This document shows positions 1 through 43,170 of a DNA stretch of 64,000 bases, piece by piece (positions within the stretch are counted from its first letter, which is position 1; each line of letters opens with the position of its first letter). The stretch is taken from positions 247,577-311,576 of the forward strand of contig NZ_JAMXMV010000011.1 of assembly GCF_024055715.1 (NCBI RefSeq), read 5' to 3'. The notes under the pieces were generated by a model. That model was not told the origin of the DNA and did not search any database. It worked only from the letters and a program-made list of their open reading frames with translations. A program made the position numbers and the translations under genes. The DNA is from Actinoallomurus soli (GTDB lineage Bacteria > Actinomycetota > Actinomycetes > Streptosporangiales > Streptosporangiaceae).

Positions 1-3000
1 CAGTCCAGGATCGCCCGGTACTCCAGCACCCGCGTGTTCGCGCCGTGGGTGAGCACGACCGGGCCATGAGCGCCACCCTGCTCCCGGATGTGCTCCACCA
101 GAGCGTGGTGCGCCCTGGAGGCGTCGTATTTCGGGCGCGGGCCGGGCTGGGGATGGGTGGGGTCCGGGCGGTACACGGCCGCGCCGGCCAGCAGCGGGGC
201 CAGGTCGAAACGCGGGGCGCTACCCAGCGCCGCCCAGGCCGTCGGGTCCACCCGATCGCGCAGCGCCTGCCGGGCCTGCTGCTCGTTGGCGGCCAGCTCC
301 GCGAGCAGCTCCTCGTACTGCGCCTCGAACATCTCCACGTAGACGTCACCGGTGACCGGGTCGCTGCGGACCGGCGCGCCGACGGGCTTGGCCTTGTTGG
401 GGCGGAGGAGGTGGTGGCGCGTCTTCTGCGCCTCGAGCCAGAACTGCCCGCGCAGGCGTACCAGCAGCGTCGAGCCGTACTCCTTGACGTCCTGCTCACG
501 CCGGTAGTTCTCGGTACCGGCACTGCTCTGGTTCGCCGACGTGACCCGGCTGTCCCCGTGACTCACCGTCCAGGAGTGGTCCGGGCGGTGCGGCGGCGCC
601 TCGGTGCCCGGCGGCGCGGGGGGCTGCGGGTTGATCGTGTCGGTGCCGTTGACGGCGTACTCGGCGGTGCCGCGCATCTGGTCGCTGCTGTTGCTGGCGG
701 TGGTGCCGCTCTGGTGCTTGATGTAGCGGCCCACGCCGGTGCCGTCCACCATCCGCATGATCACCTGCGCGTCGAACAGCTCGGCTCGCAGCGTCACCTG
801 TGCGCGCAGGTCGGAGTCGCCGGCCCGGAACAGGTTGGAGGGCAGCCGGTACCCGTCGGTTCCGATGGCCTCGAGCAGGTGGTTGATCAGGTGCGACCGC
901 GACAGCAGGAACGGCAGTGACTGGAAGGACCGAACGCCCGGGTCGCCCGCCTGGGCCCCGAGCGCCTTCTCGTACCAGCGCGGCCCCAGCAGCTGGTCCA
1001 GCAGCTTCCGCGCGGCGGGCAGCAGGCCGTCCGCGGTCACGCCGACGACGGCCAGGTTGCGGTTCAGCTTCGGCAGCGGGAGCAGGTTCCGCAACTGCTC
1101 CGGGCCGTGCAGGGTGCCCGCCTCGGCGAGGGCGTGCGGGATCTGCAGGTCCAGTAGTCCGTCGACGGTCGTCCGGGAGGTCGCGTCGTGGTTCGTCCAC
1201 GTCTCGAACCGGCTGAGGAGCAGGTTGTTCAGGGGACGGCCGGACATGTCGAGCCGGTCGATCTCCACGATCAGCCGCATGGGGACCCGTACGGCGTAGT
1301 GGTTCGCCCAGTCGTACCCGGTCATCTCACTGACCGCGTTCTCCGCCCGGGTCGTGCTCCGGTGGTGCCCTTCGCCCGTCTTGAGGTCGACCGGGCCGCT
1401 GGCGTTGGTACCGCCGGCCGTGAACTTCGGCAGCACGAGGGCCTGCGACCCGTCCCGCGATTTCGACTGGGCGGTGCCGGTGTAGTTGTGCCAGTAATTC
1501 GCGAGACCGGTGTTCCACCGGTAGTCGTACACCTCCGGCGCGCCGATGCGCTCGGCCCGCAGCCTGACCCTGACGACGTCGGTCAGCACCGGGCCGACGG
1601 GGTTGGCCAGGTGGAAGCTGAAGCCGTTCCGCGAGGGCAGCTCCTCCCACAGCATCTGGTCGCGGCCCTCGGCCAGGATCGCCTGCAGCAGGTCCGTCCC
1701 GCCCTGCATCCGGCCGATCCGGCGGCCCTTGCCGTCCCACAGGAGCGGGTCGGACCCCAGCAGCCCCGGAGCGGCCGCCTCGATCTGCTGCCGGACGATC
1801 TGCTCGGTCGTCCGGCCGTCGTCATGGGTCCAGCGGTGGACGCCGTGGTGGCCGAGGAAGGAGCCGCCCGGGTCGGTCCTGGTGAGGTACTCCGGCAGCG
1901 TCATCCGGTCGAACGGCAGGCGCGGGTGCGACAGCTTCTGGCGGAACGTCGCGTTGAACCGGTCGCGGATCTCCAGGTTCATGACCGGTACGGCGCCGAC
2001 GGTGTGCAGCTCGGCCAGGATGCCCACGAGCGGCGCGCGGTTCACCGGCAGGCCGGTGGGCGGCTCGGGGACCTCGGCGTGCCAGCGCATCAGCAGGCCC
2101 GCCACGACGTCACCGCTCAGCCGCAGTCTCCCGTCGAGCCAGCTCCGCATCACCTCGCCCAGCCGCCGGTCGGACAGCGGCTCCCGGCCCTCGGCGTACG
2201 CGACGACGTCCGCGGGCATGTCGGGGACGGCGAACGGGTCGTGCGGCGCGCCGAGCGACCGCCCGAAGGCGGTGTTGAACCGGTCCCGGACCTTCTCGTC
2301 CAGGATCGGGGCCGCGCCCATCTCGTGCAGGCGGATGAGCGTGTTGATGAGCTTCCCGCGCTGGACCCTCGGTGCGTCCTTCGGGAGGGCCGGCCGTTCG
2401 CCGGTCCAGCGCATCAAGATCTTCGCCGCGAGGTCACCGCTGAGCTTCAGCCTGCCGATGTGCCAGCGGAGCATCGCGTCCCGGAGCTGGCCGTCGGAGA
2501 TCGGCAGGTGACCGTCGGCGTACTGCGCCAGGGCCTCCGGCTCGGGCAGCGCGAACTCCACCATGCGGGGTCCGACCGTCTGGGTGCGCTGCGCGCTGCT
2601 GCTCGGCAGGAACTTGGCGTGCTTCTCCAGACGGCTCCGCACATCGAAGGACACCGTGCTCCGGAAGAAGTACACCCGGTTGAAATCGAGCTGAAGGAGC
2701 TCCTTGCCACCCGTGCGGCCGCTCGTGCGGGACCGGTTGAACTGCCAGTGCCGGTTGAGATCGCTCTCCCCGGTCAGGTGCGCCGGCCCCGCGTCCCCGC
2801 CGAGCGCCACGTCGAGCTGGTCCCAGCTCCACCCGTGGGAGCTCGTGTCGGACGCGCGGCCCTCCATCAGCTGGAGCTTGATGATGCCGGTGACCGCCTT
2901 GTGAGCGCTGGCCCCCACGAAGGTGCTGCGGCCCAGGCCGCCGCGGATGTCGATCGCGCCGAGCCGGTCGCGGGTCAGACGCGACTCGAACGCGTTCTCG

Positions 3001-8458: not shown

Positions 8459-11400
8459 ACATCCCGCCTCGCAGCCGGATGGGCCTGCCGATGCGGAGGA
8501 TCTCCTCCAGCGTCTCTCCACCGGCCAGCTGTCCGGTCCAGTAGATCTGCGCGATGGTCTCGCCGGTCTGCCGCAGCGTGAGCTTCCCTCGAGGGTTCAG
8601 CTGCTGGTGCAGCTCAGGTAGCCGCCCCCGCAGCTCGGCCGCGTCCTCCGCATCGATCTGCGCACGAAGCTCCGTGAGCTCGTGCAGAACGTCCGTCCAC
8701 AGCGCCTGCTCGTCGAGCCGGTCGAGCCACGGCGCTTCCCCACCCTGCGGCTCGGCCTGAGGGAGGGCCGACGCTCGCCGAACGGCTTGCGCGTACGCCG
8801 AAGCGTCCTCCGGAATCCACGGCGCGGCGTAGCCGTGGTCGCCGGTCAGGCCCGGGATGCCTCCCGCGGCGTCCGAGCCGCCGCGCAGCCGGGGCATCTT
8901 CGCCAGGTCCCCGTCGAAGGCGATCCAGTGCGCGAGGTCGTTCGCCAGGCCCCTCGGGTCCGTCGGACCGGGCGGCAGCTCGGGATCGCGCAGCGCCTCC
9001 TCGACCCGGGCACGATCCACCGGGCCGCCCCGGTAGCCGAGGGTCCGCAGGACCGCGTTGACCTCGATGACGTGGAAGTCCGACACCTCGGTCCGCTGCC
9101 GCAGACTCCGGTACGGCGCCGAAGGCCGGGCATCACCATCGGTGCGAGGCCGCGAGACGATGAGCGTGTGCCGGCCGTCGTCGAGCGGCGCCAGGCCGAT
9201 ACGGGAACGCGCCTCGCGTGGGGCTTCCGCGTCGGCCAGCAGGACGCGATACCTGGTCTCGCCCGCCGCGTTCTCGACGACCGCCACCGCCCCCATACGG
9301 GCCGGCCCGATGAACCAGATCCACGTCCCGGACGGCAGATCGTCCGGCAGCCGGTCCACCTCCTCGGCCACCCGGTCGGGACGTTCCTCGAGCGCCCGCA
9401 GGACGTCGTCCTCCAGGGTCCGGACGCCGAACCCCGACTGGAACCGCACCACCGCGCCCAGCCCGGAGCGTGCGACGTCCTGAACGGTCAGGGCCCGGTC
9501 CGGCGCGCCGTTGGTGAGCCAGAAGATCGGCAAGAAGCCCGCGAGCGGGCCCATCCGCGTCCAGCCCGGGACCTCCGCGTCGGCCGGCCCGACCCCGTGG
9601 TGGCCCTGCTCGTTCCGGTAGACGTGCGCGTCGTCCGGTAGGTCGCCGCGCCGCGCGGTGTCCAGGCTCACGATGGGCGGCCGGCGGGTGTCCGTCAGCT
9701 CGGCGATGCTCGCACTCCGGTCGACGAGCCGGTTCTCGAACGCGAGCACAGCTTGGTCGAGCGTCGGCCGTGACCGGGCCTCCGTCCGCCGCGCGACCTG
9801 CCCGGCCAGATCGGGGCCGAGGTGGTCCACGACGGAGGCGAGCGCGAGGTCGCGCACCGAGGTGAAGGACCTGGCCTGCGGCCGCGTCCCGTCCAGCCCG
9901 GCAGGCGGGGCGAGCAGCAGGCCGTCTAGGCCGAGGTCCAGGGAGTACAACCGCCCGGCGTTCTCCGGGGGCCGGACCGGGAGCCCGGACACCGCCTCGA
10001 ACCACCGGATCTCGCCCTCGTCGGCGACCACGGTGAACCGTTCGGCGGTGCCGTCCGCACGGGTGACGACGGCCAGGGAGACCGCGCCGTCCCCGGCCGC
10101 CGACAGCGTGTCGTGCAGCCCCTGGACCGCCTGCTCGATCGACGGCGCCTGCCGCTGCCGGTACGCCAGGTTCACCCGGCGCCGGTCCAGGGCGGACTCC
10201 GACGCGGTGAGGCGGTCCACGGCCTCCTGCACCTCATCCGCCGTCCAGCGCGCCGCGTCGCCGGCCCCGGTGTCCCGCCCGCTGACCCGAAGGTCGGCGA
10301 GGACCTCGTCCGTCTCCTGGAGCCCGCGACGCGCGTCTGCCAGGAGCGACGTCAGGTGGGCCGTCGACTCCTCGTGCAGCTCCAGCAGCTCCTGCTGCTC
10401 GGTCTGCCGGGCCTCCAGGTCCACGATCCGGTTCCGCAGGTCGTTCAGCGCGGTCCGGTCCGGGGACAGGTCCAGGATGAGCCGCGTCCGCTGCGTGTAC
10501 AGGTCGTCGAGGGCACGCCGGAGGTCATCGAGCTCCCGCTCGATCCGGGTCGTCTCCGCGGCGGCCGCAGCGTGCTCCGCCTCGATCCGGGCGACGATGC
10601 CCCGCCACGCGGCGGCGGCCTGGACGGTGCGGCCGAACAGGCCGGGCAGCGCCTCGTGCGCCGCGCCCAACCGGTCGAGGCGCTCGCCGGCCTCGGCCAG
10701 CACCGCCTGCTCGAAGGTCCGCTGCTGCGACCAGGAGGTGCGGTAAAGCCGGGCGAGGTCGATCGGGTCGAGCCCGTGGTCGGCGGCGACCTGCCGGGTC
10801 TCCTCGCTCCACAGCCCGGCGTTCGACGCCTGGTCGGCGGTCAGCGTCAGGTCGTCGAAGGCGGCCGGGTCGAAGGCGTACAACCGGCCGCTCGGGTCGG
10901 CCCAGTGGCTGCGCACCGTGCCGTCCGGCTGCGTGACGTCCAGCCGGACGTGCGTGCTCAGCTCCCGGGCGACGTCACGGGCCAGGTGGACCGGATCGAG
11001 CGCGAGCAGCGCCGCCTCCGGCGGCAGCTCGGCGGGGGCACCGAGAGGGTTGTCCGGGCGCAACTCGTGGACCCGGTTGACCTCGTTGATGATCGCGGTG
11101 ATCTCGTCGTCGAGGGATCCGGTCAGACCGTCGAACAGCCGGGCGTCCGGCCGGGCACGCCGCTCCTCATAGACGCCAGGGTCGGCCGGTGACGGCAGGT
11201 AGGGATCCTCCGCGCGTGCGGCGGCCAGATCGGCGCGGATCGTCCGCGCGGCCCAGTCCAGGATCGCCCGGTACTGCAGCACCCGCGTGTTCGCGCCGTG
11301 GGTGAGCACGAGCGGGCCGCGGCCACCGCCCTGCTCCCGGATGTGGCTCACCAGGGCGTGGTGGGCCTGGGAGGCGGCGTACTTCGGCCGCGGTCCCGGC

Positions 11401-14400
11401 TGCGGGTGGGTCGGGTCCGGGCGGTACACCGCCGCGTCGGCCAGCAGCGGGGCCAGGTCGAAGCGGGGCGCGGTGCTCAGGCCGGCCCAAGCCTGCGGGT
11501 CGACACGGTCGCGCAGCGCCTGCCGGGCCTGCTGCTCGTTGGCGGCCAGCTCCGCGAGCAGCTCCTGGTACTGCGCCTCGAACATCTCCACATAGACGTC
11601 ACCGGTGACCGGGTCGCTGCGGACCGGCGCGCCGACGGGCTTCGGCTTGTCGGGCGTGAGGAGGTGGTGGCGCATCTTCTGCGCCTCCAGCCAGAACTGC
11701 CCGCGCAGGCGGACCAGCAGCTTTGAACCGTACTCCTTGACGTCCTGCTCACGGCGGTAGTTCTCGGTACCGGCGCTGTTCTGGTTGGCGGACGTGACGC
11801 GGCTGCCGCCGTGGTTCAGCGCCCACGAGTCGTCCGGGCGGTGCGGCGGCACCTGGGTGCCGGGCGGCGCGGGGGGCTGCGGGTTGATCGTGTCGGTGCC
11901 GCCGAGGCCGTAGTCGCCGGTGGCGCGCGTCAGGTCGCTGCTGTTGTTCGCGGTCGTCCCGCTCTGGTGCTTGATGTAGCGGCCGACGCCGCTGCCGTCC
12001 ACCATCCGCATGACGACCTGCGCGTCGAACAGCTCCCCCCGCAGCGACATCTGCGCGCGCAGGTCGGAGTCGCCGGCCCGGAACAGGTCCGGGGGCAGCC
12101 GGTACGTGCCACCGCCGGTGGCCTCCAGCACGTGGTTGACCAGGTGCGACCGCGACAGCAGGAACGGCAGCGACTGGAAGGACCGTACGCCCGGGTCGCC
12201 GGCCTCGGCACCGAGCGCCTTCTCGTACCAGCGCGGCCCCAGCAGCTGGTCCAGCAGCTTCCGCGCGGCGGGCAGCAGGCCGTCCGCCGTCACGCCGACG
12301 ACGGCCAGGTTGCGATTCAGCTTGGGCAACGGCAGGACGTTGCGCAGCTGCTGCGGGCCGTTCAGCGTGCCCGCCTCGGCGAGGGCGTGCGGGAGCTGGA
12401 TGTCCAGCGTCCCGTCCACGGTGGTCCGGGAGGTCGCGCTGTGGTGCGTCCACTTGTCCAGGGCGCCGAGGAGCAGGTTGTCCAGGGGGCGGCCGGCCAT
12501 GTCGAGCCGGTCGACCTCCACGATCAGCCGCTGGCGGATCCGTAGGCCGTAGTGGTTCGCCCAGTCGTAGTCGGTCATCTCGCTGACCGCGTTCTCCGCG
12601 CGGGTCGTGCCGCGGTGGTGCCCTTCGGCCACCTTGATGTCGGCCGAGCCGCTGGCGTTGGTGCCGCCGGCGCTGAACTTGGGCAGGACGAGGGCCTGCG
12701 ACCCGTCCCGGGACCGGGACTGGGCGGTGCCGATGTAGCCGTGCGAGTAGACCGCGAGGCCGGTGTTCCACCGGTAGTCGTACACCTCCGGCATGGCGAT
12801 GCGCTCGGCCCGCAGCCTGACCCTGACGACGTCGGTCAGCACCGGGCCGACGGGGTTCACCAGGTAGAAGGTGAAGCCGTTCTGGGAGGGCAGCTCCTCC
12901 CAGAGCATCTGGTCGCGTCCCTCCGCCAGGACCGACTGGAGCAGGTCCACACCGCCCTGCATACGGCCGATCCGGCGGCCCTTGCCGTCCCACAGCGACG
13001 GGTCGGCGCCCAGCAGGCCCGGCGCCACCCGGTCGATCTGCTGCCGGACGATCTGCTCGGTCGTCCGGCCGTCGTCGTGCGTCCAGCGGTCGACGCCGTG
13101 GTGGCCGAGGAAGAACCCGCCCGGGTCCGTCCGGGTCAGGTACTCCGGCAGCGTCATCCGGTCGAACGGCAGGCGCGGGTGCGACAGCTTCTGGCGGAAC
13201 GTCGCGTTGAACGAGTCGCGGATTCCCAGAGACGTGATCGGCACCGCGCCGACCGTGTGCAGCTCGGCCAGGATGCCCACGAGCGGCGCCCGGTTCACCG
13301 GCAGGCCGGTGGGCGGCTCGGGGACCTCGGCGTGCCAGCGCATCAGCAGGCCCGCCACCACATCACCGCTCAGCCGCAGATTCCCGTCGAGCCAGCCCCG
13401 CAACACCTCGCCCAGCCGCCGGTCGGACAGCGGCTCCCGGCCCTCGGCGTACGCGACCACGTCCGCGGGCATGTCGGGCACGGCGAACGGGTCGTGCGGT
13501 GCGCCGAGCGACCGCCCGAAGGCGGTGTTGAACCGGTCCCGGACCTTCTCGTCCAGGACCGGGGCCGCGCCCATCTCGTGGAGCCGGACCAGCGTGCGGA
13601 CCAGCTTGTCGCGTTTGACTCGCGTGTCCTTCGGGAGGGTGGGCACCTCGCTCTGCCAGCGCATCAAGATCTTCGCCGCGAGATTCCCGCTGAGCTTGAG
13701 CCGGCCGATGTGCCAGCGGAGCATGGCGTCCCGGAGCTGGCGATCGGAGATCGGCAGGTGACCGTCGGCGTACTGCGCCAGAGCCTCCGGCTCGGGCAGG
13801 GCGAACTCAACCAGGTTCGGACCCACGGTCTCACTGTGGTGCGCCCGACCGCTGGGCAGGAACTTGGCGTGCTTCTCCAGACGGCTCCGCACATCGAAGG
13901 ACACCGTGCTCCGGAAGTAGTACACCCGGTTGAAATCGAGCTGCAGAAGCTCCTTGCCGCCCGTACGGCCGCTGCTACGGGACCGGTTGAACTGCCAGTG
14001 CCGGTTGAGATCGCTCTCCCCGGTCAGATGCGCCGGCCCCACGTCGCCGCCGAGCGCGACGTCGAGCTGGTCCCACGTCCACCCGTGCGAGCTCGTGCCG
14101 GTGGCGCGCCCCTCCATCAGCTGGAGCTTGATGATGCCGGTGACCGCCTTGTGAGCGCTGGCACCCGCGAAACTGGTGGGTCCGAGATCGCCGCGGATGT
14201 CGATCGCGCCGAGCCGGTCACGGGTCAGACGCGACTCGAACGCGTTCTCGGTCGTGTACTGACCGCCGAGGATCTCCTTGAAGTACGACCGCATGGACTC
14301 GGTGCCGGCGAAGGTGTCCCGCAGCGAGGACGCCGTTCCCGCCGGATCGGTCAGGTGACCGAGTCCCTGGACCGCCTTACGGACGCCGGTGGTGTCGAGG

Positions 14401-17400
14401 AAGGTCACGACGCCCTGCTCCAGCACGCGCGCCGGCGTCGGACCGCTCGACGTGGGGCCGCCCTCCTCGGAGACCGGCAGCACGAACACCCGGGCGGTCT
14501 CTCCCGGCAGCGAGATCGGCGGCGGGTTACGCCGGCCCGCGCGGACCCGCCCCTGCCTGCCCGAGTGCTGGAGCTCGAACTTGATCTCCAGATCCCGCGA
14601 CACCTCGAACTCGTGCGTCGGCCCGTCGAACTCCATGAGCTGCGGCAGGTTGGTCAGGACGCTCAGCGCGTCACTCGCACCGGCACTCCGCTGGTACTCC
14701 AAGCCCATGACGGCGCTCTTGAGCACCTGGTAGAGGCCCCGCACCTTGACACCCAGCGCGATCTTCCGCGAGTGGGAGACGGACATGCCCGCGCTGCTCA
14801 TGCCCATCACCAGATTGACGATCCGGTAGTCCTCCGCGCTGCCGAGGTATTTCGGGGCGCTGCCGTTCCCGCGCGCCGTGACCGTGATCTTCATCGAGTC
14901 GACGTCCCAGTCGACCCCCAGGCCGCCACGCCGCTTCTTCAGCGTGAAGACCATGCCATCCTGGTGGATCTGGTCGAAGTGCGAGCTCAAACCCCGGTCG
15001 GAGGCGAACTTCTCGATCTGCCGCCGGATGTCGGCGAGGCTGTCGAGCTTGTTCCCGTGGCCGAACCGGGAGTAGTCGGCGAACGGATGGTCGGCCCGTG
15101 CGGGCAGGAACCCGTGCGCGCGCGCCACCGTCTTGATCGCGTTCTGGACCCGCTGGATGGTGCCCTCGGACCAGAAGGGCAGGCCCGTCCCGACGCCCTT
15201 GGCGTCCTTCAGCCACGGCGGCGGCGCCGGGTGATCGGCCGGGTCCGCCGGCACCTCGCGCTTGCCGAGGCGGCGGATGTCGCCCTCGGCGTACGGCCGG
15301 GTGCCGCCCGTCTGCGCACCCTTCAGCGCCTCCGCGTCGACCGGCAGACCGTGCTCGTACGCCATCGGCTCCGGGATCCGGAGGACCGCCTCGCTGTCGA
15401 TCGCCGGAGTGGTCGCGGTCTGGGCGCTGCCGCGGACGCTGACCGTGACCCGGTGCCGGAACGACATCGCGTACGCGCCGGTGTAACCGACGTAGCGCGG
15501 CACCACGACGTACAGCCCGACCTTGCCCGCCGAGATGGAGTCCACGTTCGACGACGTGTACGACAGGTTGAAGGACACGCCCATGCCGGCGTCGTGGTTG
15601 TGGAACGGCTGCAGGCCGAAGTCGAGGCTCGGGAACGTCAGCGTGCTGCTGTTCGTGATGCTGTGGCCGCCGCTGGAGCCGGAGATCAGGGTCCGGACGT
15701 TCTCGATGTTGGAGTCTTTGCTGGTGGTGCCGACCCGAGCCGCGCCGGCCAGCAGCTCGGACCGGACCGACACCGTCGCGACCGGCCGCCCGTACTCGTT
15801 GTGCAGGTCGAACTGGTACCCGCCGTCGGCGTTGTTGACGGCCGCGTCCAGATGCATGTTGAGGTTCCACAGCTTCTGGAGCAGCTCCTTGTGGATCTGG
15901 CCGCCCGCCGGCATCTCCAGGCCGTGCCGCCGCAGCTCCGCCACCGTCGCGTCGAACACCCTGGGAAGGTTCGACAGGCCGGAGGCGAAGAAGAACGCCG
16001 GCAGCCGCCCCGCCTTGACCCCGTCGCCGACCGCGGTGACCTGGGCCGGCGCGGTTCCGAGATAGTTGTCGGGGAACCAGAGGAGCAGTTTCTCGTCGGT
16101 CGGGTCGTCGACCCGGTGCACCGGGAGCGTGTCCCAGTCCCCGCCGGACCCCTTGCGGACCTGGAACGACCAGTGCCCGGTGTAGGCGAGCAGCGTATGA
16201 CCACCGCCGGCGACCTCGACGTGACCGCCCTCCGCGTCGGCGATATGGGTCAGCGACCGGTTGGACTGGTTCGCGGTGCCGGACAGCGACGCGCCCACCC
16301 GGACGACCTGCAGCGCGAAGGGCGTCGCACCGATCCCGAACGACAGCGAGATCGCCCCGCGCGTCGCACCCGTCTGCCCGGAGACGCTCTGGGTGTGCGC
16401 ACCGGTCGCGAACACCGAATTCACCGTGCCACCGGCCGTGTGCTCACCCTCGACCGGCGGCAGCTCCGACACCGTCCGCGTCGAACCACCCGGGTTCTCC
16501 ACCTTCTGCGGATCGGTCGCGTCAAGCCGGACCAGCACCTCGGCGTCACCCATCGGCACCTGCAGGCCGTGGAGCAGATGCGGGAAGTTCGCCAGCAGCC
16601 GCTGCGGGAGGAGGTCGACGTCCTCCTGCGTGTACCGCGCCCCGATCCGGTCCAGCTCCTGCCGGATGCGAGCGACGACCGTCACGATCTGCGGCAGATC
16701 CTCGCGCGGAACACCGGCCCGGACGACCATCGGGTCCACGGCGACCGGGGCCGTCTCCGCCGACGGCGCCGACACCGGCTCCGGCGACTCCGGCGGTTCC
16801 GTCGACGCGGGTGCTCCCGGAGGAGCCGGCGGCGCCTCGCTCTCGGCCTCGACTTCGGCGTCCGGGGGGAACGGCAGGGGATCCGGTTCCGACTCCACCC
16901 GGGGCTCCGTGACGGCGCGGGACTCCGTCGCGAGCTCGCCGCCGCTCGACGTGAGCAGCCCCGAGGTGAGCGGCAGGCCCTCCCGGTCTCCCGGGATGAA
17001 CATCCGGAACCACGCGTCCCGGCCGGGTTCGTCCGACCCGGTGTCCCCGGAGGGGCGGGAGAGCAGGTCGCCGGTCCGCCGGTCGAGCACCGCCTCGTAC
17101 GGGGTCGCCACCACCGGCCCGTTCAGTGCCCGCGACACGGGCTCGGCGACGCTCGCGCCGTTGGTCATCGCCAGGAGCGGGTGCAGGCCGGGCGCCAGGC
17201 TCTCGACGACCTTCGCCATCGCGTAGGCCTTGAGGTCCTGCTCGCGGGCCGTGGCCCGGCCGTCCTGGGCGTCACCGATGATGAGGACCATCCCCTCGGG
17301 AACGACCTCGCTGAGCCGGGCGAGCGTCTCGGGGGCCCGTGGCAGGGCGGGCTCGGCCCGGCCGGGCAGCCACAGCGCCACCGTCCGGTCCCCGGCCTTG

Positions 17401-20400: not shown

Positions 20401-23400
20401 GGGAAGAGGTGCACCCCGACGAGGTCCCCACCGGAGTCCGTGAAGCGCCGCCCCGGCGCCTCGCCCTGCACGGCGGTGAAGATCCGCCTGCGCGAGGCCG
20501 GCGACCACGGCGCCCGCGTCGTCAGGTCCCGCTCGCCGGCGCCTTGGGCCGGGGCGGGAGCCGGTTCGTCGTACTCCAGCAGGTGAGGCGGTGTCAGGTC
20601 GGCGAGCAGCTCCCGGTCGCCGGTGCGCTCGCGCGGGCGGAACTCCTCGTCGAACCAGGCGTACAGGTCCGCCGCCTCGCCGGCCAGCACCTCCTTGGGC
20701 ACCCTGGAGCGGAGGTCACCGCCGAGCCCCGCCCAGCGCCATGCCCGCAGCACGTCGAACAGCGGCTGCGACGTGGCCGTGCCCCAGGAGATCGCCGCCT
20801 GGAGGAACAACCGTTGGTGGTCCGGTCCAAAACCGAGACGCCCGTACACGCGCAGCAGCCACTCGGTCTGGTCGGGCGGCAGCAGATGCACCTGGTAGCC
20901 GCGAACGTCGCGCATCTCGGTGCGCCACTCGTCGCTCCGCTGCTCCCGGGAGTGCGGGACGTCCTGCCACAGCTCGGTCAGGGCCGCGTGATGGTAGTGG
21001 ACCGCCTCGTACATCCCGGTCATGACGTCCTGGAGGTTCCACTCCGAGTCCTCGCCGAGCAGCCGCTCCAGCTCCGCGCCCGAGGCCACGCGGAATCCGC
21101 GGGCGGCGGCGTCGGCCCCCATGCGGCGGGCGAGCGTGACGTACAGGCGGCGGGCGGCGTCGCTAGCGGCGTGGAACACCTCCAGATCCGACCCCAGCAC
21201 CCGCCCGGAGGCACGCTCGTAGACGTTGCGCGCCGGGGCCCACGCGGGAGAGTCGTAGACATGCCCGAGCCTGACCGGCGGTTCGGGGAGGTTGTCGGCG
21301 TCCTCCGGACGCGTCAGATCCGCCGGGAGGTGATCGGTGGTCGCGGGCCGGGCCTGCGGGGCGCTCGTCCACTGCGGCCAGTCGTGCGGCGGAGCCGACA
21401 CCGGTGCGGGCTCTTCCAGCGCCGCCGTCTCGGACGGCACGGTCGCCTCGCCCGGCGTCGCGGACAGGGAGGTACGGGCGAGCGCCTCGGCGAGTTCGTC
21501 CACCGAGGGCTCCCGGCCGTCCTCCTCCGGCGGGAACAGTCTCCGGGCCAGCTCCTCGTACCGCTCGCCGAGCAGGTCACGGAGCGACCCGTCGAGGTCG
21601 GCGTAGCGCGTGAGAGTGCCGCGCCTCGGGCTGGCGCCGCCGAGCTCGGTCCCCAGCCGGAGTGCCGCCTCCTCGGCCGGTGTGCCCGCGCTCCGTAGCT
21701 CCTCCAGGACGCGTGCCGCGTGCCGGGCGTACCGGAGTTCCCGCATCGCCACGGCGTGCTCGACGAGAGTCCCGGTCCGCTCGCGCATGTTCGCGTCGGC
21801 CTGTGCCAGATTGCGCGCGTTGTAGTGCAGGGGATGCGACTCGGCGTGCGCCTCCGTGATCACCGCGACGGCCCGGCCGATCGGATTCGAGAGCCCCGCG
21901 GAGAACCACCAGGAGGCCGGGGCCTTGTCGAACTCCTCCCACAGGGCCCTCTGAACGTCGTCCAGCGCGCCGGTCAGGAAGAGATTGCGGTCGTTGCCGG
22001 GTTCGACGCCGATGGCGGCGAGCCACTCGCCGGCGGTCAGCGGCCCGCGACCGAGCGCCGTGTCCAGGACCATCCACTGCGGACGGCCCTCCGCGTCATG
22101 GGCCCACACCACCGCGGCGATGTGGTACTGCCAGGGAACCCGCGCCGGGTCGAGGGAGCCCGGCAGGTCACCGGAGCTCAGCCCCAGCCCCCACCCGTCG
22201 GTGCCGGCGGCGGTGACCGCGATCTTGCCGACGGGCGCGCCCCACTGCAGGAGCCGCAGCGTGATCAGATGGGCCCGGATGAAGCAGCCGTCGGCGACGT
22301 GGTCGTTCGGCATCCGGACGGCGCCGAGCTCGTGGTGCTGGAAGCTCAGCTCGCTCAGCAGGTCGTACCACCGCGCGACCTGCGCGTACGACACCGGGTC
22401 GGGCCGGGTCTCACCGAACAGGTTGTGGGCGGCGGCCAGCGGCCAGATCTCGTTCCAGCGGTGCCAGGGAACGCCGTCGTGCTCCCGGTCCCACAGGTCG
22501 TTCAGATGCCGCTCGATGGACGCGCCGTAGCGGGCCTGATAGGCCTCCTGAACGGCCCACGCCTGGGGCAGGTCCTCCCCGAGGAGACGCAGCAGGGCGA
22601 ACGCGCCCTCCGCGTCCTCATGCTCCACCAGCACCGTGTGCAGGTTCTCGGCGAAGGCCTGGACCTGCGGCAGTGCGGACGGCGCCGCCTTCGGCGCGAC
22701 CGCGACCGGACCGGGCGGCGGAGCTCCCAAAGTGAACTCCGAGACCAGGCCGATCATCCGGAGGACGTCCTCGACCAGCGTCTCCGGCGCGCGCCCCTCC
22801 GCGACCGCGTCGTCCATCGCCTCGGCCAGTGAGGCTCCCTCGGTTCGCGCCTGGAACGCGGCGTCCAGGGACTCGGCCGTCCGGCCGTCCGCGAGCGAGC
22901 GGCGCAGGCGAAGCTGCTCCACCACCGCGGACTGGTCGACCGGGTCGCCGCTCAGCAGCGAGACGAGGCGATCGGCGTACTCTCCCTCGGACGGGCCGGT
23001 CGAGGCGACGGGCCCGGTCCGGGCCGGCTCGGTGGCGGGCGGGGCGGAGAGCGGTGCGCCGTGGTCCGCGAGCGGGATCCAGACGGCCGGGCCTTCCTCC
23101 GCTCCCGCCGGTGTCAGGTGGATGCCCGACGGCCCGCCGACGAGCGTGTACGGCGTGACCTCGAAGCCCGGTGTGCCGAGGACGTCGCGCAGCTGGTCCT
23201 CGTTGGCCACCTGGCCGACCCATCCGCTGTCGCCCCGCAGCAACGCGCCCGTCGGAGCGTGGAAGAAGTCGTCGCCGAACCGGAGCCAGCCGTCCGGAGA
23301 GAGCATCCGGCCGTCCGGGAGCCGGATCCGGCCCGTGTCGCCGACCTCGTAACGGAGCGGCGCGGACCGGGACTCGAGCACACGCTCGTACGTGAACCAC

Positions 23401-26400
23401 CGCTCCGCGGACTTGCCCCTGCCCGCCGGGGCCGGGGCGGGCACTTCGGTGAGACCACCCTCACGTGGCCCCTCGACCGTGAACTCCCGGCCGATCGGCC
23501 AGCCCGCCCGCAGCGGATCGACCCCGGTGTCCCGCGACCCGCCGCGGAGACCGCCCGCCGGCCCGCCGAACCGGCCATCGGGCGCGAACCCGGTCCGTGA
23601 GAGGAGGCGCGGCTTGCCCAACTTCTCGTGAAGGAGCAGGTGGGGAGCCTGCAACGCCATCTTCGCCCGCGCGTCGGTGATACCGGTGAGGGGGGTGAAC
23701 GCGGCCTGGATCCATTCGTAGAAGTCCCCGGCCTCGCTGTTCAGCGCCCACCGCGCCCTCACGGTGCCGAATCCGGCGCGCTCCCAGGCGAGCACGATGT
23801 CGTACAGCGGTTCCCCCAGCGGCACCCGCCAGGCGATCATCGCCGCGAGGATCCCCCGGCCGAGATCGGACTCCGGCATCGAACCCGGGTGGGCGGACAC
23901 CAGACTCCGGTACGCGGAGAACAGCTTTTCGACGTGGCCGAGCGGCGCGTCGCCCAGACGGTAGCCGCGCACCTGCTGCATCTGCGCGCGCCACGACGCT
24001 TCACGGGGCGCGGACCCCTCGGCGAGGTTCGGCGGAGCCTGCCGTTGCACCGCGGCGGCGAAGGCGGCCATCGTCTCGGGCACGCGCCAGTCCGGGGCGA
24101 TCAGGAGGGCTTCGAGTTCCGCCCGCGAGCCGACCGGTCGCCCTTCCGTCGCGAACCACGACGCGGTGTCCTCCCCCCGCGTGGCCGACAGGTCCCCGCT
24201 CAGCATCCGTACGGCGCTGCGAGCGGCGCTGTACGCGGCCGCGCGCCCCGCCAGGATCGAGGCCAGGGCCTTCTCGTGGCCTTCGCGCAGAACGGCCCAG
24301 CCCGCGTGGCGATAGGCCACGCCGAAGAGGACGGGTGGTGGGGAGGTCAGCGGGTCCGCGGGTGGTGGGGCGGTCAGCGGGTCGGCGGGCGGGCGGGGCT
24401 GCTGCGACGACGCCGGGCCCGCCTCACTCTGACGGGCGTGTCCGGCCGGCGGCTGGAGGCCGGTCGGCCGGCCGGCCATCGCACCCGGCGCTTCCGCAGG
24501 CCCGGCCGCCCCGGGTCGAGGGCCGCCACCGGCCCGAGCGACCGTCCACGCCGGCAGCGCGGACACGACCTTGAAACCGACCGGGGGGAGGAAGCGGTAC
24601 AGCTCCTCCACCGTGGTCTTCTGCAGGTACCCCGGGACGGTCCCCTGCCGGAGGTTCGGCCGCCCGGGCTCGCCTTCCGGGTAGACCCAATGGCTCAGGA
24701 CCTCCTGGCGGCCCTGGGCGTCGCGGGTGCCGAGCGCCAGCGCGACGTGAGTCAGAGGGCCGTACACCACGAGATGCCCGGCCGGGACCTCCGGCGTCAT
24801 CAGGCCGGTCCGGGGATCGACCTGATGCGTCGTGAGATCGCCGGCGATCATCGACCGCGCGAACGCCTCGGCGTACGCGTAGTCCGCCTCCCACATCGCG
24901 CGGGAAGGCGACACCACGGCCGCCTGCGTACGGAAGACCTCGGCCGTCACCCGGGTGGCCTCCTGGTGGATCCCCACCAGCCAGGCCTTGTCGACGGCCC
25001 CGGACCGGTGGGCCGTGAACAGCAACGCCTCCCAGCAGTTCATCGCGCTCTGCGCCGACGGCATGGGGCCCTCATCGCGGAGCCATTTGGCGAAGTCGTT
25101 CGCGCCGCGCGGCGTCGTCGTGGCGAGCGCGAAGCCGTCCTTCGCGGAGAACGACGAGGACACCCACTTGTAGAAGCCGACGGATATCAGCCCGGCCTGC
25201 AGGACGCGGTGCGTCCAGAACCGCACGACCGCCGGATCGAACGCGTAGGCGTTCGCCGCCGGACCACGCGAAGCCTGACCCCGCTCCTCTTCCGTCACAC
25301 CGGCGGTGATCCGTCCGGCCCGGACCGGCGGTGACCATCCGGCCTGTGACCTCGCGCCCCGCTCGGGCGCCGTCTCGGATCCCCGCGTGCGCCGGGCCGG
25401 GGGCCGGGGCCCGTCGTCCTCATCGGCGGGCCGCTTCGATCCCGAACCGCCCGGTGCGGAGGGGGCGGGGTACGACGAGCCGGCGTCCCGATCGCCGAGG
25501 ACCTCGTAGATCGAGGAGGCCGCGACGGTGTCCGCGGCGCCGCTCTGCTCGGTGGTCACCACCATCGCGAAGGCCGGCGCGCCGGACGCCTTCAGCGGGT
25601 GGTCCACGAGAAGGGCGGTGGCGTCCACCGCCTCGATGATCTCCAGGTACCGCGCGGGCATCTCCTGGGCGGGGTCGAACGGGCCGCCCGCCATGAGCCC
25701 GTCGTACCCGACCGCCGAACGCGGCTCCGTACGCCGGACCCCGTCGCTTCCCACGACGGTCAGCGTCGCCAGGCGGCGGAACAACGACTCCGCGTCCAGG
25801 TTCTCGTCCGGCAGCCCACCGCCGTGCGACGACTCATGCGCGAGCACGATCAGGAGGTCCCGCATGCCCCAGTGCCGGGCGTCCGGACGCGTCAGCTTCA
25901 GGTCCGGCGCGTCCGCGGTGCGTCCGGGGCGTATCTCGACGGCCTCGCCGTGACCGGGGTCGACGACCAGCTTCACCGCCATGAACAGCTGGTCACCCGA
26001 CCGCGGAAGCCTGTATCCCCGGTTCACGTGCTTGTCGTACAGACGGTTCAAAGACGCCTGCAGAGCCCGGACGTCGGCCTCGGTCACCCCGAACATGGGC
26101 TTGACCGGCAGCGTGACGACGCGGACGCGGACCCAGGTGCCGTTCTCCGCCTGGATGCGCTGCACGTTGACCCGGATCAGCGTCTCCCACGAGGAGGTCT
26201 TCCCGGCCTTGCCCGCGAAGAAGCTCACCTTCGGGTCGTAGCGCTCGGTCGCGACCTTGGCCACCGGCGCGTCGAACCGCCGATCCAGCCACTGCTCCGG
26301 ACTCGCCGGCCGCTCGACCTTCGCGCCCGGCTCCCGCACCGGATTCGGTGTGCCGTTCCGGGGGTCGGCGTTCGTACGGGTCACCGGCCACGCCGGCGCC

Positions 26401-29400: not shown

Positions 29401-32400
29401 GCGTTCAGCGCCGCGACCGCGTTCTCCTCCTCGAGGTAGTACTCACCCTCCGGCCCCAGGAAGACATCCCACACATCGAGCGTGAGAATGGCGCCGTGCG
29501 GACCGGTCGCCAGGGTCACGCCGCCGTAGTCGTTCGGATCCTCGACGTCGGGGTGCTTGAGGATGTACGGGAACTCCCGCTCCTTGCCACCCCCCTCTCC
29601 GTGCAGCCCGGACACACGCCCGTCGACGACGAGTTGCGCGATCGCCTCACCGGCCCGCCGGAGCGGACGCTTCAGCGTCGAATCGAGCTCCTCGTACAGC
29701 ACGGGCAACCGCTCCCGCAACTCCTTCGCGGCATCGCCCGTGACCTCCGAATGATTGCGCGCCAGCTCCCTGCGCACCTCCTGCCACAACACCTGCAGCT
29801 CATGCCGGTCCAGCCCCGCCGCCCCATCGGCGGGCCAGAGCCCGGCGGTCTCCTCCGTCCGCTCGGCGACGGCGGAGACCGGGTGTTCCGGCTCCGACTC
29901 GGTATCGGTGCTGAGGACCGACTCTGTATCGATGCTGAGGACCGACTCTGTATCGATGCTGAAGATCGATTCGGTGTCGGTGCTGAGGACCGACTCGGTA
30001 TCGATGCTGACGGTCGACTGCTCTTCGGCGAGGGCCTCAGCGCGGCCGGTGTCGAACAGGCCCGCGGTGGTCTCGTCCTCCGAGGAGACCGTTGCGCGGT
30101 CGACCGGCGCCCACCACAGGCGGTACTCGTCGAAGAAGTCCTCGCGGAAGGACGCGGCGGTCCGGTCCACCCACTCGGTGTCGTCGAGGTCGTGGCCCTC
30201 CCCGACGGTCTGGAACGACCGGCCCGCGGTCCGGAGCGCGGCCGGGACGGTGGCCTCGAAGGCGAGGTGGGCGGGGAGCTCGGTTGTGAGGCGCTCGACC
30301 CTCCGATCCCAGGAGGCGGTCCGCTCGGTCAGGTCCTCCGGTGTCTCGGCGCCGCCGAAGATCTCGTCGTAGGCGTCCGTCATCCGGTCGGTCAGGCCCG
30401 TACGGGTCCGGCCGGCGTCGTCCTCGGACAGCGCCGTCTCGGGGTGGTCCTGCCGCCACTGCCCGTAGGCCGAGGCGAAGACCTCCGCGGCCTTCGCGGC
30501 AACACCCTGCTTGGCCGTCTCGCGCGCGAACAGGGTGTGCAGCCGGGGCGTGCCGGTGGTCTCGCCGTACCAGGACCGCCACTGTTCGAGCCGCTCGGCC
30601 TGCGTTCCGCTCTGCTCGCCGGTGAACAGTGCGCCGAACCGGTCGTTCACGGACCGGGCGATGGACTGCTCCGCCGACCGCCGCACGCCGCCGGGCGGTT
30701 CGCCGCCGAACTCGACGCCGAACCGCTGCCGGAACGCCTCGAGCGCCTCCGGCGGCGCGGTCCGCCACGCCTCGATCGCGGTGTTCACGTCGGCGAGGGT
30801 GCGGGTCAGCGCGCTCTCGCGGGCGGTCTGCCGGGCCAGCGCCGACGGCACGGACGCGGCCACCGTGGCGAACCTCGCCTGCCAGCGCTGCCGCATCTCG
30901 GCGGTGACCTCGGTGCCGGGCGGGAAGATCTCCTCGTACGCGGTGTCGAGCTCCCGCCACCCGTCGAACACGACCTGGGTGCGGCCGGGCTCCGACGGCA
31001 CGGCGTCCTCGGGGGCGAAAGCGGCGAGCAGGTCCCGGTCGGGCTCGGACAGGGTGTCCCGGAAGGACTCGGCGGCGGAGAAGACGAGCTCGGTGAACCG
31101 CTCCTGCTCGGACGCGTGACCGGCGCGCCGGTCGAAGGACTCCCACAGGCCGCCGCCGATCAGCTCCCGCAGGCGGCGTTCGGCCGTGCGCCGGATCTCC
31201 GGCAGGGCGGCGCGGATACCGGAGACACCGGTGAGGAGCTCATCGACGGCGCTCTCCCACTTCTCCTGGAAGTCCGCGCGCTGCCCCTCGCGTACGGATT
31301 CGGCCACGGTCTCGGTCAGCGCGATGGGCAGGGCGTCGTCCGCGTCCCCCAGGCGCCGGCCGCGGTCCTCGTACCAGCTCTGGAAGGCCCGCTCGTACGC
31401 GTCCCGGCCGGCCTGCAGGGCGACCTGCCGGGCGGCCTCCCGGTCCAGCTCGTCCGTCAGGCCGTCCAGGATCTCCTGGCGCTCTTCGTCACCGGCGAGG
31501 ATGCGACGTTCGAACGTCTTCAGGGCCCGGTCGCGGATCGCGTCGAGTCGCTCACCGGCCGTCTCGCGGGCGCCCTCCGGGACCCACGCATCGAAGATCT
31601 CATCGAACGCCTGCCGGTCGGCGGCGGTGGCCGCCTGCCCGGCGGTCTCGGCGTCGTGCCGGCGGAAAGTCGCCTCGAGGTTCTCGTACAGGCGCGCCTG
31701 CGCGGTGTGCCACGCGGGGGTGCGCCAGTCGCCGGGTTCGGCGTAGGACGGCTCGGCGACGGGCGTCCACCCGGGCTCCTCCGCGTCCTGTGCGGCGGAG
31801 GCGGCCAGGTACTCGTCGATGAAGGGGGTGCTCAGGTCGTCGACACGGCGGCGGAGGTCCTCGATGTTGCGGCGGACCCAGTTCGCCGTGGCTCCGGACC
31901 GGAGCGTCACCTTGCCGTCGCTCTGCGCATCGAGGAAGCGGGTGAACTCCCGCTGCGCGACGTCGCGGCGCTCGGCGATCTCGTGCAGCGCGTCGAGCTG
32001 CCGGGCGTGGTCGGACGCCAGCCGGGCCTGCGTGGCCGGGTCGAGCGTCCGGCCGCCCACGAAGTCGGTGATCCGCCTGGCGATCTCGGCCTGCTCCCGC
32101 CGATACCAGGACGTCACCTCCGGCGTCCACCCCTCGTGGGGCGGACGTTCGGTGATCAGCGTCTGGGCCTGAGGTTCCGGCGCCACCTCGCCCTGCGAAG
32201 TTTCGCCGCCCAGGGGCGCGGTGCCCTGTTCGTCCTGGGGCGTCGGCGTGGTCTGGGACGACCGCTCGAGCAACTGCTGCCGCCGGTAGGCGGTGGCCGC
32301 GGCGTCGTACCGTCCGCGGAAGTCCTCCACCAATCGGGTCCGCGCGTCCTCCGTCGGGGCGGGGCCCTCGGTCATCGCCTGGACGAACTCGTCTCGCACC

Positions 32401-35400
32401 GCGGTGGCCTGGGGGCTGTGGTGGAAGGCGGGGTCGACGATGCGCACCGCCGGCCGCGAGTAGGAGACGACCTCCCACGCGAACACGTGCCGCGCGTCGG
32501 CGACCGCCCGCGCCTCGTCCAGCCGCCGGACGAGCTCGCCCTTCAGCCCGCTGCGGCTTCCCGGGTCCGTGGCGGCCCACTCGTGGACGAACCACTCGCG
32601 CGCGCTCTGGACCTGTTCGATCGCCCCGATCGTGAAGCCGCGGTTCGGCTGCTCGTCGAGCACCGCGTCGAACGCCCGGTGCGCCTCGTCGCGCTGCTCG
32701 ATCTCGGTGCGCAGGCGGGCGAGTTCCTCGGCGGCCCGGGCCTCGGCCGCGAGCCTCGCCGGACTCGGCGCCGACGGGGTCTCCCGGACCTCCGGCGGCG
32801 CCTCCCGCACCTCCAGAGGCGCGTCCTCGAGAAGGACCTGGGCCTGCTCGAGGACCTCGACCGGCGTCTCGGCCTCGTCCGGGACCTCCTCGAAGTGCGC
32901 CCGCCGGTCCACCGGCGGCTCCGGGTCCGTGGACGCGGACCTCACCTCCGAACCCGTGGGCGCGGACCTCGCCTCCGAGCCGGCGGGCGCGGACTCCGTC
33001 TCCGGCATGAGCCCGGCGCGCCGCTCGTACTCCTCGAGCGGGGTACGGGTCAGCTCCAGCCGCCGGAGGTCCAGGGTCCACTCCGGGTTCTGGCTCCAGT
33101 CCCGGTAGACCTGCTCTTTGGCCTCGACCTGCTCGCGGAGGGCGGCGAGGCCCTCGCGTGCCTCGGCCAGCACCGAGGCACGCCCCTCCTCGCCGTCGGC
33201 CGCGTCCATCTCGGTGCGGAGGCGGCTCCGGAGCGCCTCCTGGCCGGCGCGGTAGTCGGCGAACGCGTGCGGGGACCGCAGATCCGGGCGGCCCTCATCG
33301 AACACCCGGTCCAGATTCTCCAGCGCGTTGGCCCTGCGGGTCATGTCGGCGAACATGTCCAGCAGCCGCTGCCGGTCCCGGGCGTTCTCCTCCGCGGCCT
33401 GCTCGCGCAGCCGGGCCAGCCGCGGCGCGTCGGTCTCGGCCTGGAACGCCTCCCAGCTCTCCCGGAGCGTGACGCCGAAGACGTCGCCCTGGGATCGTTC
33501 CAGCTCCAGCCAGTCCGCCACGTTCCGATCGGCCGGGCCGAGGTGCTCGTGGATGAGCATCGCCGAGTCGGTACGAAAGTCGTTCTTGAACTCCTCGAAC
33601 CTCTCCTCGCTCATCGCGTGGCGCCGCTGCGCCCGGCCGGTGAGCTCGCTCGCCTCGGCGGTCAGCTCGTTGAACCGGCCGGCCGCCTCGCCGAGCAGGT
33701 CCTCCGCCCTCGCCTCGAATCGCAGGCGCTCGTTCAGCGAGTAGAGGTAGGGCAGGAAGTGGTCGTGGTAGAACGCCTCCTCCCGGCTGATCAGCTCCTC
33801 GCGGGACCAGAGGCCCTCCCCGGGGCGGCCGACCACCGACTTGTACGCGTCGGTCATGGCGGTACGGAAGTCCGCGCCGACCCGCTGGACGTGCGTGTCC
33901 GACCGGCCGGTGCCCTCCAGCGCCCGGTCCACCCGGCGCAGCATCGCCGCCCGGCCCGCCTGCTCGTCGAGCCGCGCGGGCAGTTCGGCGGCCAGGCGCT
34001 CGAACGCGGTGGTCAGCCGGCGGGTGTGCTGCTCCCAGTCGCGGGCGCCCGGCTCCCCGGCGGAACGGCCGCCGAGGAGCCGGGTGCTCTCGGCCCGCAG
34101 GTCGGTCCGGAACTCCGCCAGGACCGCGCCGTAGTCCACGCCGTCGATCTCGGCGCGAGGGCGGTCCGACATCTCCCGCCAGGAGAACTCCCGGTCACCC
34201 AGCTCGTCTTCGGCGCGGGCCAGAAGGGCGTCCTCGGCCATTTCGGCGCGGATCCGGGCGGTGAAGAGCTCGTTCAGTTCGCGCACCGCCGGTCCGAGTT
34301 CCGTTGTGCGCCGTTCGAACTCCTCGACGGGGAGGGTGCGCGTCTCCCGGCCTCCGGGCAGGGTCCGCGTGTAGGCCTCGAAGTACGCGTGGTACTCGGC
34401 CCGCAGGTCCCGGGCGCGGTCGGACGCGGGATCCAGGCCCGTCTCCCCCGTCAGGCGGCGGAACTCGAAGTTCGCCTCGTACTCGAGCTCGAGCCGGGTC
34501 GCCAGCCCGCGGGCCAGCTCGCCGGTACGCGCGGCGGCCCGGTCCGCGAAGTCGTACAGGGCGTCCTCGCGGTGCGCCCCGCCGCGCAGGCCCACGTTCT
34601 CGGCGATGCGGCGGACCTCGGCCTCGTTCGCCTCGAGGAACCGCGTCAGCGCCCGCGCCTCCTCATCCGGCGAGAGCCGGTCCCGGTCGACGACCGCGTC
34701 GAAGGCCTCCTCGGCGCTCACCCGCGCCGAACGCACGGCGGCCTCCAGCTCGAGCTCGTCGTGCAGACCGTCGGTCAGCTCCTGGAACGACCGTTCGAAC
34801 CGATCCCGCGTCAGCTCGCCGCGCAGGTGACGGTCGAACAGCGGCTTCCACCGCGCGTCGAACCGGTCCCGTACGTCGAAGGTCCACGGCCGCGTCCGGT
34901 CGGCGTCGAGCCGCGCCTGCTCGCGGATCATCCGGTCGGTCACCTCGGGGAGGGACAGGTCGTGCCGCAGGCCGTACAGCCGGGACTCCAGCACGCCGGC
35001 CAGGCGCTCCTCGAAGGACCGCGTCTCGTCCGCCGGAGCCTGGTTGTGCTCGGCACGGGCCGTGCGGTACGCATCGGCGACCGTCTCGACGAGATCGTCC
35101 GGCACGCCGGCCTTCCGCGCCCAGCCCTCCGGCTCGGACAGCGGGTCCCGCCGGAGCAGCAGTTCGGCCACCTCGTGCGGCGACGCGGAGTACTCGTTGT
35201 CCCCGAGCACCGGCTCCAGCTTGGCGATGAGCCGCTGCTGCAGCGTCGGTGGTCTGTCGACGAGCTCCTGCTCTCCGCCGACCATGGTCTTGGGGGGCTT
35301 CGCTCGCGCCCTGTCGTCCTCGGCCAGAGCGGCCCGGTAGGCCTCGGTGATCGGGCGGGTGAGCCGGTCGGGGAAGCCCGCCTCGCGGAGCCGGATCGCC

Positions 35401-38282: not shown

Positions 38283-38645
38283 CTACTCCCTGCCGCCGAA
38301 GGAACCCGGCGTCCGCCAGCCGCCCCCGGACTTGGCGTCGTGCACGGCCGTGAGCGCACGGCCCTGCTGGTTCACGACGCTCTTCTGGTTCGCCCGCAGC
38401 GCCATCGGAACGGCCAGCAGCATCCGGCTGGCCGCCTCGGTGCCCGTCGCGATCTCGTCGACGAGCCTGATCGCCGCCTCCGTGGCCGGAGCTCCGAAGG
38501 CCTTGTCGTTGCCGAGCACGTCGAAGTTGACGCCGTTACGGAACCGCGCGGCCAGGTTGAACACGTAATTGCCGAGTTCCTCCATGGCCTCGACGGCCGC
38601 TTGGGCCTTCGCCGGGTCGGCCGTGTACTTGCCCGTCTCACCCAT
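38283..38645 (-). CDS. Small helical T7SS-associated protein (120 aa)
   Basis: A 120-residue, mostly alpha-helical protein with the size and heptad-like Ala/Leu pattern of Esx/EspC-type T7SS partners but no Trp-x-Gly turn. Its ATG (38643-38645) overlaps the TGA of the YbaB-like gene upstream by 8 nt, so translation is coupled. Its stop lies 9 nt before the GTG of the giant gene, which suggests it serves the giant protein, for example as a secretion partner or chaperone; this role is inferred from position only. No signal peptide or membrane segment is visible. Confidence 0.85.
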   Translation of the reverse strand: MGETGKYTADPAKAQAAVEAMEELGNYVFNLAARFRNGVNFDVLGNDKAFGAPATEAAIRLVDEIATGTEAASRMLLAVPMALRANQKSVVNQQGRALTAVHDAKSGGGWRTPGSFGGRE

Positions 38646-42624: not shown

Positions 42625-43089
42625 TCAGGTGGACTGGGTGCCGCCAGCCGAATTGAAGTCATTGGGCACCGTGCCCAGGGCATCCAGGAAGGCCTTACCG
42701 TCGATCTTGTCCAGCGAGCCGTGCTGGGCGTCCATCAGCTTCTTGATCGTGGTGTTGAGGTACGTGTGCAGATCGGTGAAGAGCTTGATCTGCTGCGCGT
42801 AGATGTCGGAGATGGACTGCGCCGACGTGGTGATCTTGTCGACGAGGGCCTTGCCGCTGGTCGCCGAGTCCTTGGCCAGGGCACCGATCGCCAGCGGCGC
42901 GTGCAGCCGGTAGAAATCGTTGTCCGCGGTGCTCTCGCCCTTGCCCAGCAGGAAGTCGATCGGCGGCGTGCCCTGGGTGTCGGTCTTGTGCGCGATCTTG
43001 TCGAGGGAGTCGCTGAAGTTCGTGATGTCGTTGTCGACGAACTTCTGCAGCGAGTCCTTGTCCAGCGCCAGCTTCTTCTGATCTGCCAT
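42625..43089 (-). CDS. Helical T7SS-associated protein (154 aa)
   Basis: 154 aa from ATG 43087-43089, with GCGGAG just upstream. The protein is entirely helical: an N-terminal Lys/Asp-rich helix, a Gly-Lys-Gly turn near residue 50, then two long amphipathic helices (AQQIKLFTDLHTYLNTTIKK) typical of Esx-like hairpins but longer. It lacks Trp-x-Gly. It lies between the Esx pair and the AAWKG gene, separated from the former by a strong hairpin. It may be a secreted partner in the EspB/EspC manner; no precise family is recognised. Longer in-frame extensions upstream were rejected because they read through the hairpin. Confidence 0.85.
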   Translation of the reverse strand: MADQKKLALDKDSLQKFVDNDITNFSDSLDKIAHKTDTQGTPPIDFLLGKGESTADNDFYRLHAPLAIGALAKDSATSGKALVDKITTSAQSISDIYAQQIKLFTDLHTYLNTTIKKLMDAQHGSLDKIDGKAFLDALGTVPNDFNSAGGTQST

Positions 43090-43170
43090 GGCTCCGCTGT
43101 TCCGAGGTCTGTCGGTTCCACTGCCGGCCGGTCCGGTTCGCGGCCGGGGATTTCGGCGTTCGCCTGCCGG

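Follow-up and report, generated by a model that had tools for sequence, protein, structure and literature searches.

The DNA analysed here, called the window throughout, is a stretch of 64,000 nucleotides from Actinoallomurus soli that forms the right end of contig NZ_JAMXMV010000011.1 (positions 247577-311576 of 311,576; genome 9.42 Mb; window GC 72%). It harbors a type VII secretion system (T7SS) locus and, on the minus strand, a giant reading frame whose product is the subject of this report. From a GTG start codon at 38273 the frame runs for 12,757 codons to the left edge of the window without a stop, as the preliminary description of this DNA had stated. That description proposed extension to the left to find the stop codon; the adjoining contig stretches place it at window -25572..-25570 (contig 222004-222006), 25.6 kb past the edge. 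The complete product has 21,281 amino acids (aa), a mass of 2,304,457 Da (2.304 MDa) and a pI of 5.35. It was fairly ranked among the largest bacterial proteins, but record size is ruled out by an Omnitrophota giant of 39,678 aa reported in the accessible text of PMC10066038.

The giant is a single protein-coding frame under selection. Codon-position GC is coding-like in 21/21 blocks of 1,000 codons (0.48-0.59 at the second position, 0.86-0.95 at the third), and about 349 stops are expected in a random frame of the same composition. Ratios of nonsynonymous to synonymous substitution rates (dN/dS) lie at 0.31-0.64 in 4 segments compared between internal copies, and at 0.45-0.75 in 5 segments compared with the nearest relative. 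Long spurious frames do occur in GC-rich genomes, and the window itself has an antisense frame of 3,541 codons. However, frames of more than 15,000 codons are present in five genomes, one of them on a 7.8-Mb contig, and known domains lie near either end of the same frame as well as in its middle. A chance or assembly artefact is ruled out at high confidence by the open frames in relatives, the coding-like GC, the conserved synteny and dN/dS values below 1. The parts of the giant are as follows; those within the window are on the minus strand.

1..38273, minus: visible part of the giant frame, residues 1-12757 of 21,281, continuing to the stop at window -25572
37821..38192, minus: WXG100_2 domain, residues 28-151 (Pfam PF25547, 28.9 bits, cut-off 27)
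35274..37253, minus: Pro/Ser/Thr/Gly-rich linker grading into charged sequence, residues about 341-1000 (composition and sequence)
29970..35273, minus: conserved Ala/Glu/Arg-rich region, residues 1001-2768, part of it related to the Streptomyces 'lonely Cys' protein P0016
26304..27236, minus: papain-like NCW module (NCW, Cys3796 ... His), residues about 3680-3990 (motif only)
25344..26273, minus: putative zinc metallopeptidase, HESSH at 4146, residues about 4001-4310 (motif only)
24465..25457, minus: second NCW copy (Cys4413), residues 4273-4603, 44% identical to the first
22014..22322, minus: protein glutaminase (Gln_deamidase_2), residues 5318-5420, Cys5330 (Pfam PF18626, E 2.2e-11)
19896..20516, minus: His-Gly ... 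Cys6039 module, with 20% identity to a relative's module that weakly matches lonely_Cys (NF012197)
8832..19898, minus: core repeat copy 1, residues 6126-9814 (self-comparison)
11634..16706, minus: beta-rich core within copy 1, residues 7190-8880 (two AlphaFold models, with long strands in six groups)
9984..10289, minus: Gln_amidase-fold domain without any Cys, residues 9329-9430 (Pfam)
1..8447 and past the window edge, minus: core repeat copy 2, residues 9943-13563 (self-comparison)
Left of the window: core repeat copy 3, residues 13646-16028, mostly at 41-45% identity (self-comparison)
Residues 20241-20354: Scabin-like ADP-ribosyltransferase domain (PF22596, E 1.4e-21)
Residues 20727-20825: second glutaminase (Gln_deamidase_2), above the Pfam cut-off

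The motif positions named in the preliminary description (3800, 4150, 4410, 5330 and 6040) correspond to Cys3796, HESSH4146, Cys4413, Cys5330 and Cys6039; at about 230, where another had been placed, no special motif was found beyond the conserved N-domain. The end of the frame, the triplicated core, the restriction of Cys and the synteny go beyond that description.

In five genomes the giant belongs to the ESX locus and keeps a fixed place there. When its first 340 residues were used as query, 8/60 genomes matched, namely its own and all 7 other members of the genus sampled, and none of the 52 others did. The relatives are A. purpureus KCTC 19541 (G007), A. iriomotensis NBRC 103681 (G002), A. 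spadix (G004), 'Actinomadura sp. DC4' (G005), two metagenome-assembled genomes (G003 and G001) and G006. The genome recorded as Actinomadura sp. DC4 (NZ_JAUEQY010000011.1) groups with Actinoallomurus, possibly a matter of naming. Complete frames were recovered from separate assemblies in 4/7 relatives (16,792, 25,518, 15,442 and 18,762 codons, stop to stop), the 15,442-codon frame being the one on the 7.8-Mb contig; in the other three, frames of 4,054, 3,581 and 1,365 codons end at the ends of short contigs. The fixed position follows from the finding of 14-15 of 15 locus probes around the giant in four relatives (G007 15/15, G002 14/15, G006 14/15, G005 15/15), and EccC of G007 is 92% identical to that of the window. 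The minus-strand order is EccD, EccB, two WXG100 proteins, NF033533, AAWKG, YbaB, a 120-aa protein and the giant, then NF033532.

38283..38645, minus: 120-aa protein without Cys, its stop codon 9 bases from the giant's start codon
38638..39120, minus: YbaB/EbfC family protein (Pfam PF02575)
39177..42569, minus: AAWKG family protein, 1,130 aa, with a very long Gln/Glu/Lys-rich stretch (NCBIfam NF038047, E 1.4e-45)
42625..43092, minus: lone7_assoc_B, T7SS-associated protein (NCBIfam NF033533, E 1e-34)
43214..43537, minus: WXG100 (Esx) protein (Pfam PF06013)
43586..43921, minus: WXG100 (Esx) protein (Pfam PF06013)
44071..45651, minus: EccB (Pfam PF05108)
45685..47190, minus: EccD (Pfam PF19053 and PF08817)
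47146..51372, plus: EccC ATPase, divergent and adjoining EccD (Pfam PF01580, E 6.5e-90)
52286..53509, minus: mycosin-like subtilase (TIGR03921, 176 bits, under the cut-off of 279)

The AAWKG protein is itself free of Cys and is present upstream of the giant in 4/4 relatives probed. Beside the ESX locus, plus-strand positions 53132-56983 encode one protein in which two AAA domains (EccA-like) accompany a right-handed beta-helix. The position of the genes beyond EccC (mycosin, EccA-like) differs in some relatives.

Direct coupling to Esx, EccB, EccC and EccD genes had been claimed, and it holds for Esx, EccB and EccD; EccC is adjacent but lies on the plus strand. The giant has a WXG100-superfamily N-terminal domain and is encoded in a conserved ESX locus, as a T7SS substrate would be. 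Two hydrophobic segments occupy residues 118-142 and 167-201. YxxxD/E is a T7SS export signal, and a partner protein may carry the signal instead. By eye, the sequence YGDPD near residue 201 (YGDPN in the nearest relative) was compared with this motif. The earlier label of candidate giant T7SS effector is reasonable as such, given the N-domain, the locus and the enzyme-like modules. For the N-domain, which had been called CpnT-like, the family match is to WXG100_2. This domain would direct export through EccC/EccB/EccD, perhaps together with the small proteins encoded upstream.

Beyond the conserved N-terminal part, the chain is a mosaic. Alignment to G007 covers 93% of residues 1-2768 (median identity 67%) and 50% of the whole giant, vs 6% of residues 2769-6126, 0% of 16029-17500 and 13% of 19451-21281. 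For G002, G006 and G005, which are more distant, coverage is 74, 68 and 71% and median identity about 51%. Near relatives have had the middle and C-terminal part replaced but retain the N-terminus and the neighbouring genes, which is the pattern expected of polymorphic toxins. Among 442 candidates (lengths about 5,500-17,500 aa), one was a named homologue of residues 1-2768.

Several enzyme-like modules are present, as had been noted from the sequence. Two Gln_deamidase_2 domains and one Scabin-like domain score above cut-off, and the remaining modules are recognised by motif only. At E<=1 neither Pfam nor NCBIfam yielded a family for the first NCW module (Cys3796), and the Cys6039 module itself had no library match; the relative's module reaches NF012197 with E 8.8e-10 and 37.7 bits, against a cut-off of 200. 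Cys16148 lies within what we take to be an OTU-like motif. Profiles A5 and A6 of Cys modules gave no match, and A4 weakly matched a viral L protein (E 0.2) as well as an OTU protein (E 0.72), so the OTU-, caspase- and papain-like labels are readings of motifs only. The Gln_amidase-fold stretches of core copies 1 and 2 (the second at residues 13090-13177, a weak match, E 0.015) contain no Cys and are therefore probably not active deamidases. A sequence search against solved structures covered residues 1-5000, 4700-9699, 12759-17758 and 19426-21281; its sole yield, from the C-terminal stretch, was the Scabin/Pierisin group. Matches to SMC proteins were taken as coiled-coil noise.

These domains bear on whether the giant could be an adhesin or coat kept on the surface of the producer, with enzyme-like domains that remodel cell wall or matrix rather than attack. 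In the accessible text of PMC11573180, giant prokaryotic proteins fall mainly into two functional groups, one of which is surface proteins, and the Pro-rich linker and the long Ala/Glu/Arg-rich region suit a stalk. However, a Scabin-like ADP-ribosyltransferase and two glutaminases are effector-type enzymes, and no adhesin, peptidoglycan-binding or sortase family was found in Pfam scans of the chain. A retained surface protein is improbable.

Cysteine is nearly absent from the giant. Its 21,281 residues include 6 Cys, vs 0.84% in 19 neighbouring proteins (90/10,733), a deficit not explained by chance (binomial log10 P about -67). The five giants together, with the relatives' frames counted stop to stop, contain 36 Cys in 97,795 residues. 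Two of the giant's six Cys are in the Pfam glutaminase domains and four, by eye, in putative nucleophile motifs of thiol enzymes. The same by-eye grouping places 32/36 Cys of the five giants in catalytic-looking contexts; the remaining four (G007 3957, 4421 and 14843; G006 11096) match no motif recognised. Ten Cys-centred segments drawn from the 36, with the glutaminases not among them, were compared with family libraries. A thiol-enzyme Pfam family was found in 3/10, all below cut-off (Gln_amidase, E 2.4e-4 and 1.2e-3; Peptidase_C2, E 1.2e-4), NF012197 below cut-off in 1/10, and none of these families in 6/10.

Cysteine exclusion in exported proteins of Gram-positive bacteria is a published idea. 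At this locus the two Esx and five other T7SS-associated proteins are likewise free of Cys. A nearby amine oxidase also lacks Cys, however, so that lack of Cys alone is no proof of export. Across nearly 98,000 residues, the giants have about one Cys for each thiol-enzyme-like module and hardly any in other places, a pattern that constitutes a clean natural experiment on Cys exclusion in exported proteins.

The core occurs in three copies. When copy 2 is aligned with copy 1, identity is 67% over ~1,180 initial columns and 85-87% over the remainder. The core fold is predicted to be barrel-like. For core model 1, VIA returned outer-membrane beta-barrels throughout the 50 matches listed, with Z to 12.3. 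Strand groups A and B are rich in Ser, Thr and Gly and poor in charge, a composition typical of membrane-inserting hairpins, whereas groups C-F are not charge-poor. Foldseek matched the modelled core to MACPF with E 1.1e-4 but a TM-score of 0.07, and no MACPF family was found in Pfam scans of the giant.

Tentatively, then, the giant may well be an exported multi-effector polymorphic toxin of the T7SS cluster, in which the repeated beta-rich core is predicted to fold into barrel-like sheets that would carry enzymes across a target membrane. The Ala/Glu/Arg-rich region would serve as the stalk, and the core copies would insert into, or thread through, the membrane. The glutaminases, thiol modules and putative metallopeptidase would release effectors or be effectors themselves, and two domains near the C-terminus, the ADP-ribosyltransferase and the second glutaminase, would be the main cargo. 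No immunity gene was recognised among the neighbours scanned (downstream d1166 and d465 by NCBIfam only, d736 unscanned), which, together with the enzyme repertoire, weakly suggests a non-kin or eukaryotic target.

Alternatively, the giant could be a T7SS-exported multi-toxin whose beta-rich core is no membrane channel but protects or displays the enzymes, as a structural shell or a lipid-binding sheet. In the Foldseek rankings, microsomal triglyceride transfer protein heads the list for model 2 and lipovitellin is fifth in that for model 1, the TM-scores are low, and the charge in groups C-F suits such a sheet. On the other hand, the barrel matches listed by VIA and the hairpin-like groups A and B favor membrane insertion. 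A shell or lipid sheet is rather unlikely, although by no means far-fetched. A more elaborate version of toxin delivery is a single-chain machine, in which a T7SS-exported 2.3-MDa protein bears several outer-membrane-like beta-barrels as translocation pores for the neighbouring enzymes, in a host without an outer membrane, and species acquire, lose and exchange copies of modules and barrels without change to the N-terminus or the neighbours. We consider this version doubtful. An outer membrane is not expected in an actinomycete host. Should the giant be made and exported, it would probe the upper size limit for a chain passing through a type VII system.

Giant proteins that unite several toxin domains have been described from actinobacteria, the longest of 13,652 aa (e.g. 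SACTE_5178), with OTU, caspase-like, lethal-factor-like metallopeptidase and pierisin-like ADP-ribosyltransferase domains named in the accessible text (Zhang et al. 2012, PMC3482391). The present giant is likewise actinobacterial and exceeds 10,000 aa in one chain, with several different toxin-type peptidase and ADP-ribosyltransferase domains. It is 1.6 times, and its largest relative (25,518 codons) 1.9 times, the longest of those proteins. The triplicated beta core, genus-wide T7SS synteny and Cys pattern were not found in the accessible part of that description and set it apart. What appears new against the accessible prior descriptions is a larger giant, syntenic in five genomes of one genus, with a recurrent barrel-like core. 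The literature searched had nothing pairing Actinoallomurus with type VII secretion.

The locus is also related to 'lonely Cys' systems (NF012197, NF033532, NF033533), whose T7SS-associated neighbour families match strongly here. The Streptomyces protein P0016, for which NCBI gives the name 'lonely Cys domain-containing', aligns at 33% with residues 1011-1618, at 47% with 4915-5101 and at 24-31% with pieces of 17401-19540. Unlike lonely Cys proteins, the giant carries thiol modules of several kinds and fails the curated NF012197 cut-off in the parts scanned, with no match in residues 1-9699 (E<=0.1) or other scanned parts (E<=1; ~9,700-12,758 outside the NCBIfam scan). The phrase 'lonely Cys' was not found in the literature searched. 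The domain at 20241-20354 resembles Scabin/Pierisin ADP-ribosyltransferases but, unlike them, is one small module of a 2.3-MDa protein and is followed by a glutaminase. Similarly, parts of outer-membrane autotransporter and BamA barrels and of perforin-family pores resemble the predicted core fold, yet the sequence search of four stretches against solved structures matched none of them.

The core is rare outside Actinoallomurus in the samples scanned. It was found in 3/396 genomes of the phylum (its own, G302 and one weak 59-residue match), in 7/150 of the family (its own, 4 others from its genus and 2 weak matches) and in 2/246 of genus g49, probably Streptomyces; these counts are lower bounds because 3-9 candidates were scored per genome. 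The conserved beta-core of Actinoallomurus and Streptomyces giants would be a candidate delivery device for a class of actinobacterial toxins with no entry route known to us. G302, of genus g49, has core-bearing frames of 19,630 (L048) and 12,384 (L045) codons, and the host genome contains two further core-bearing giants, of 12,342 (C33:624338-625768) and 8,920 codons (C13:101046-102521).
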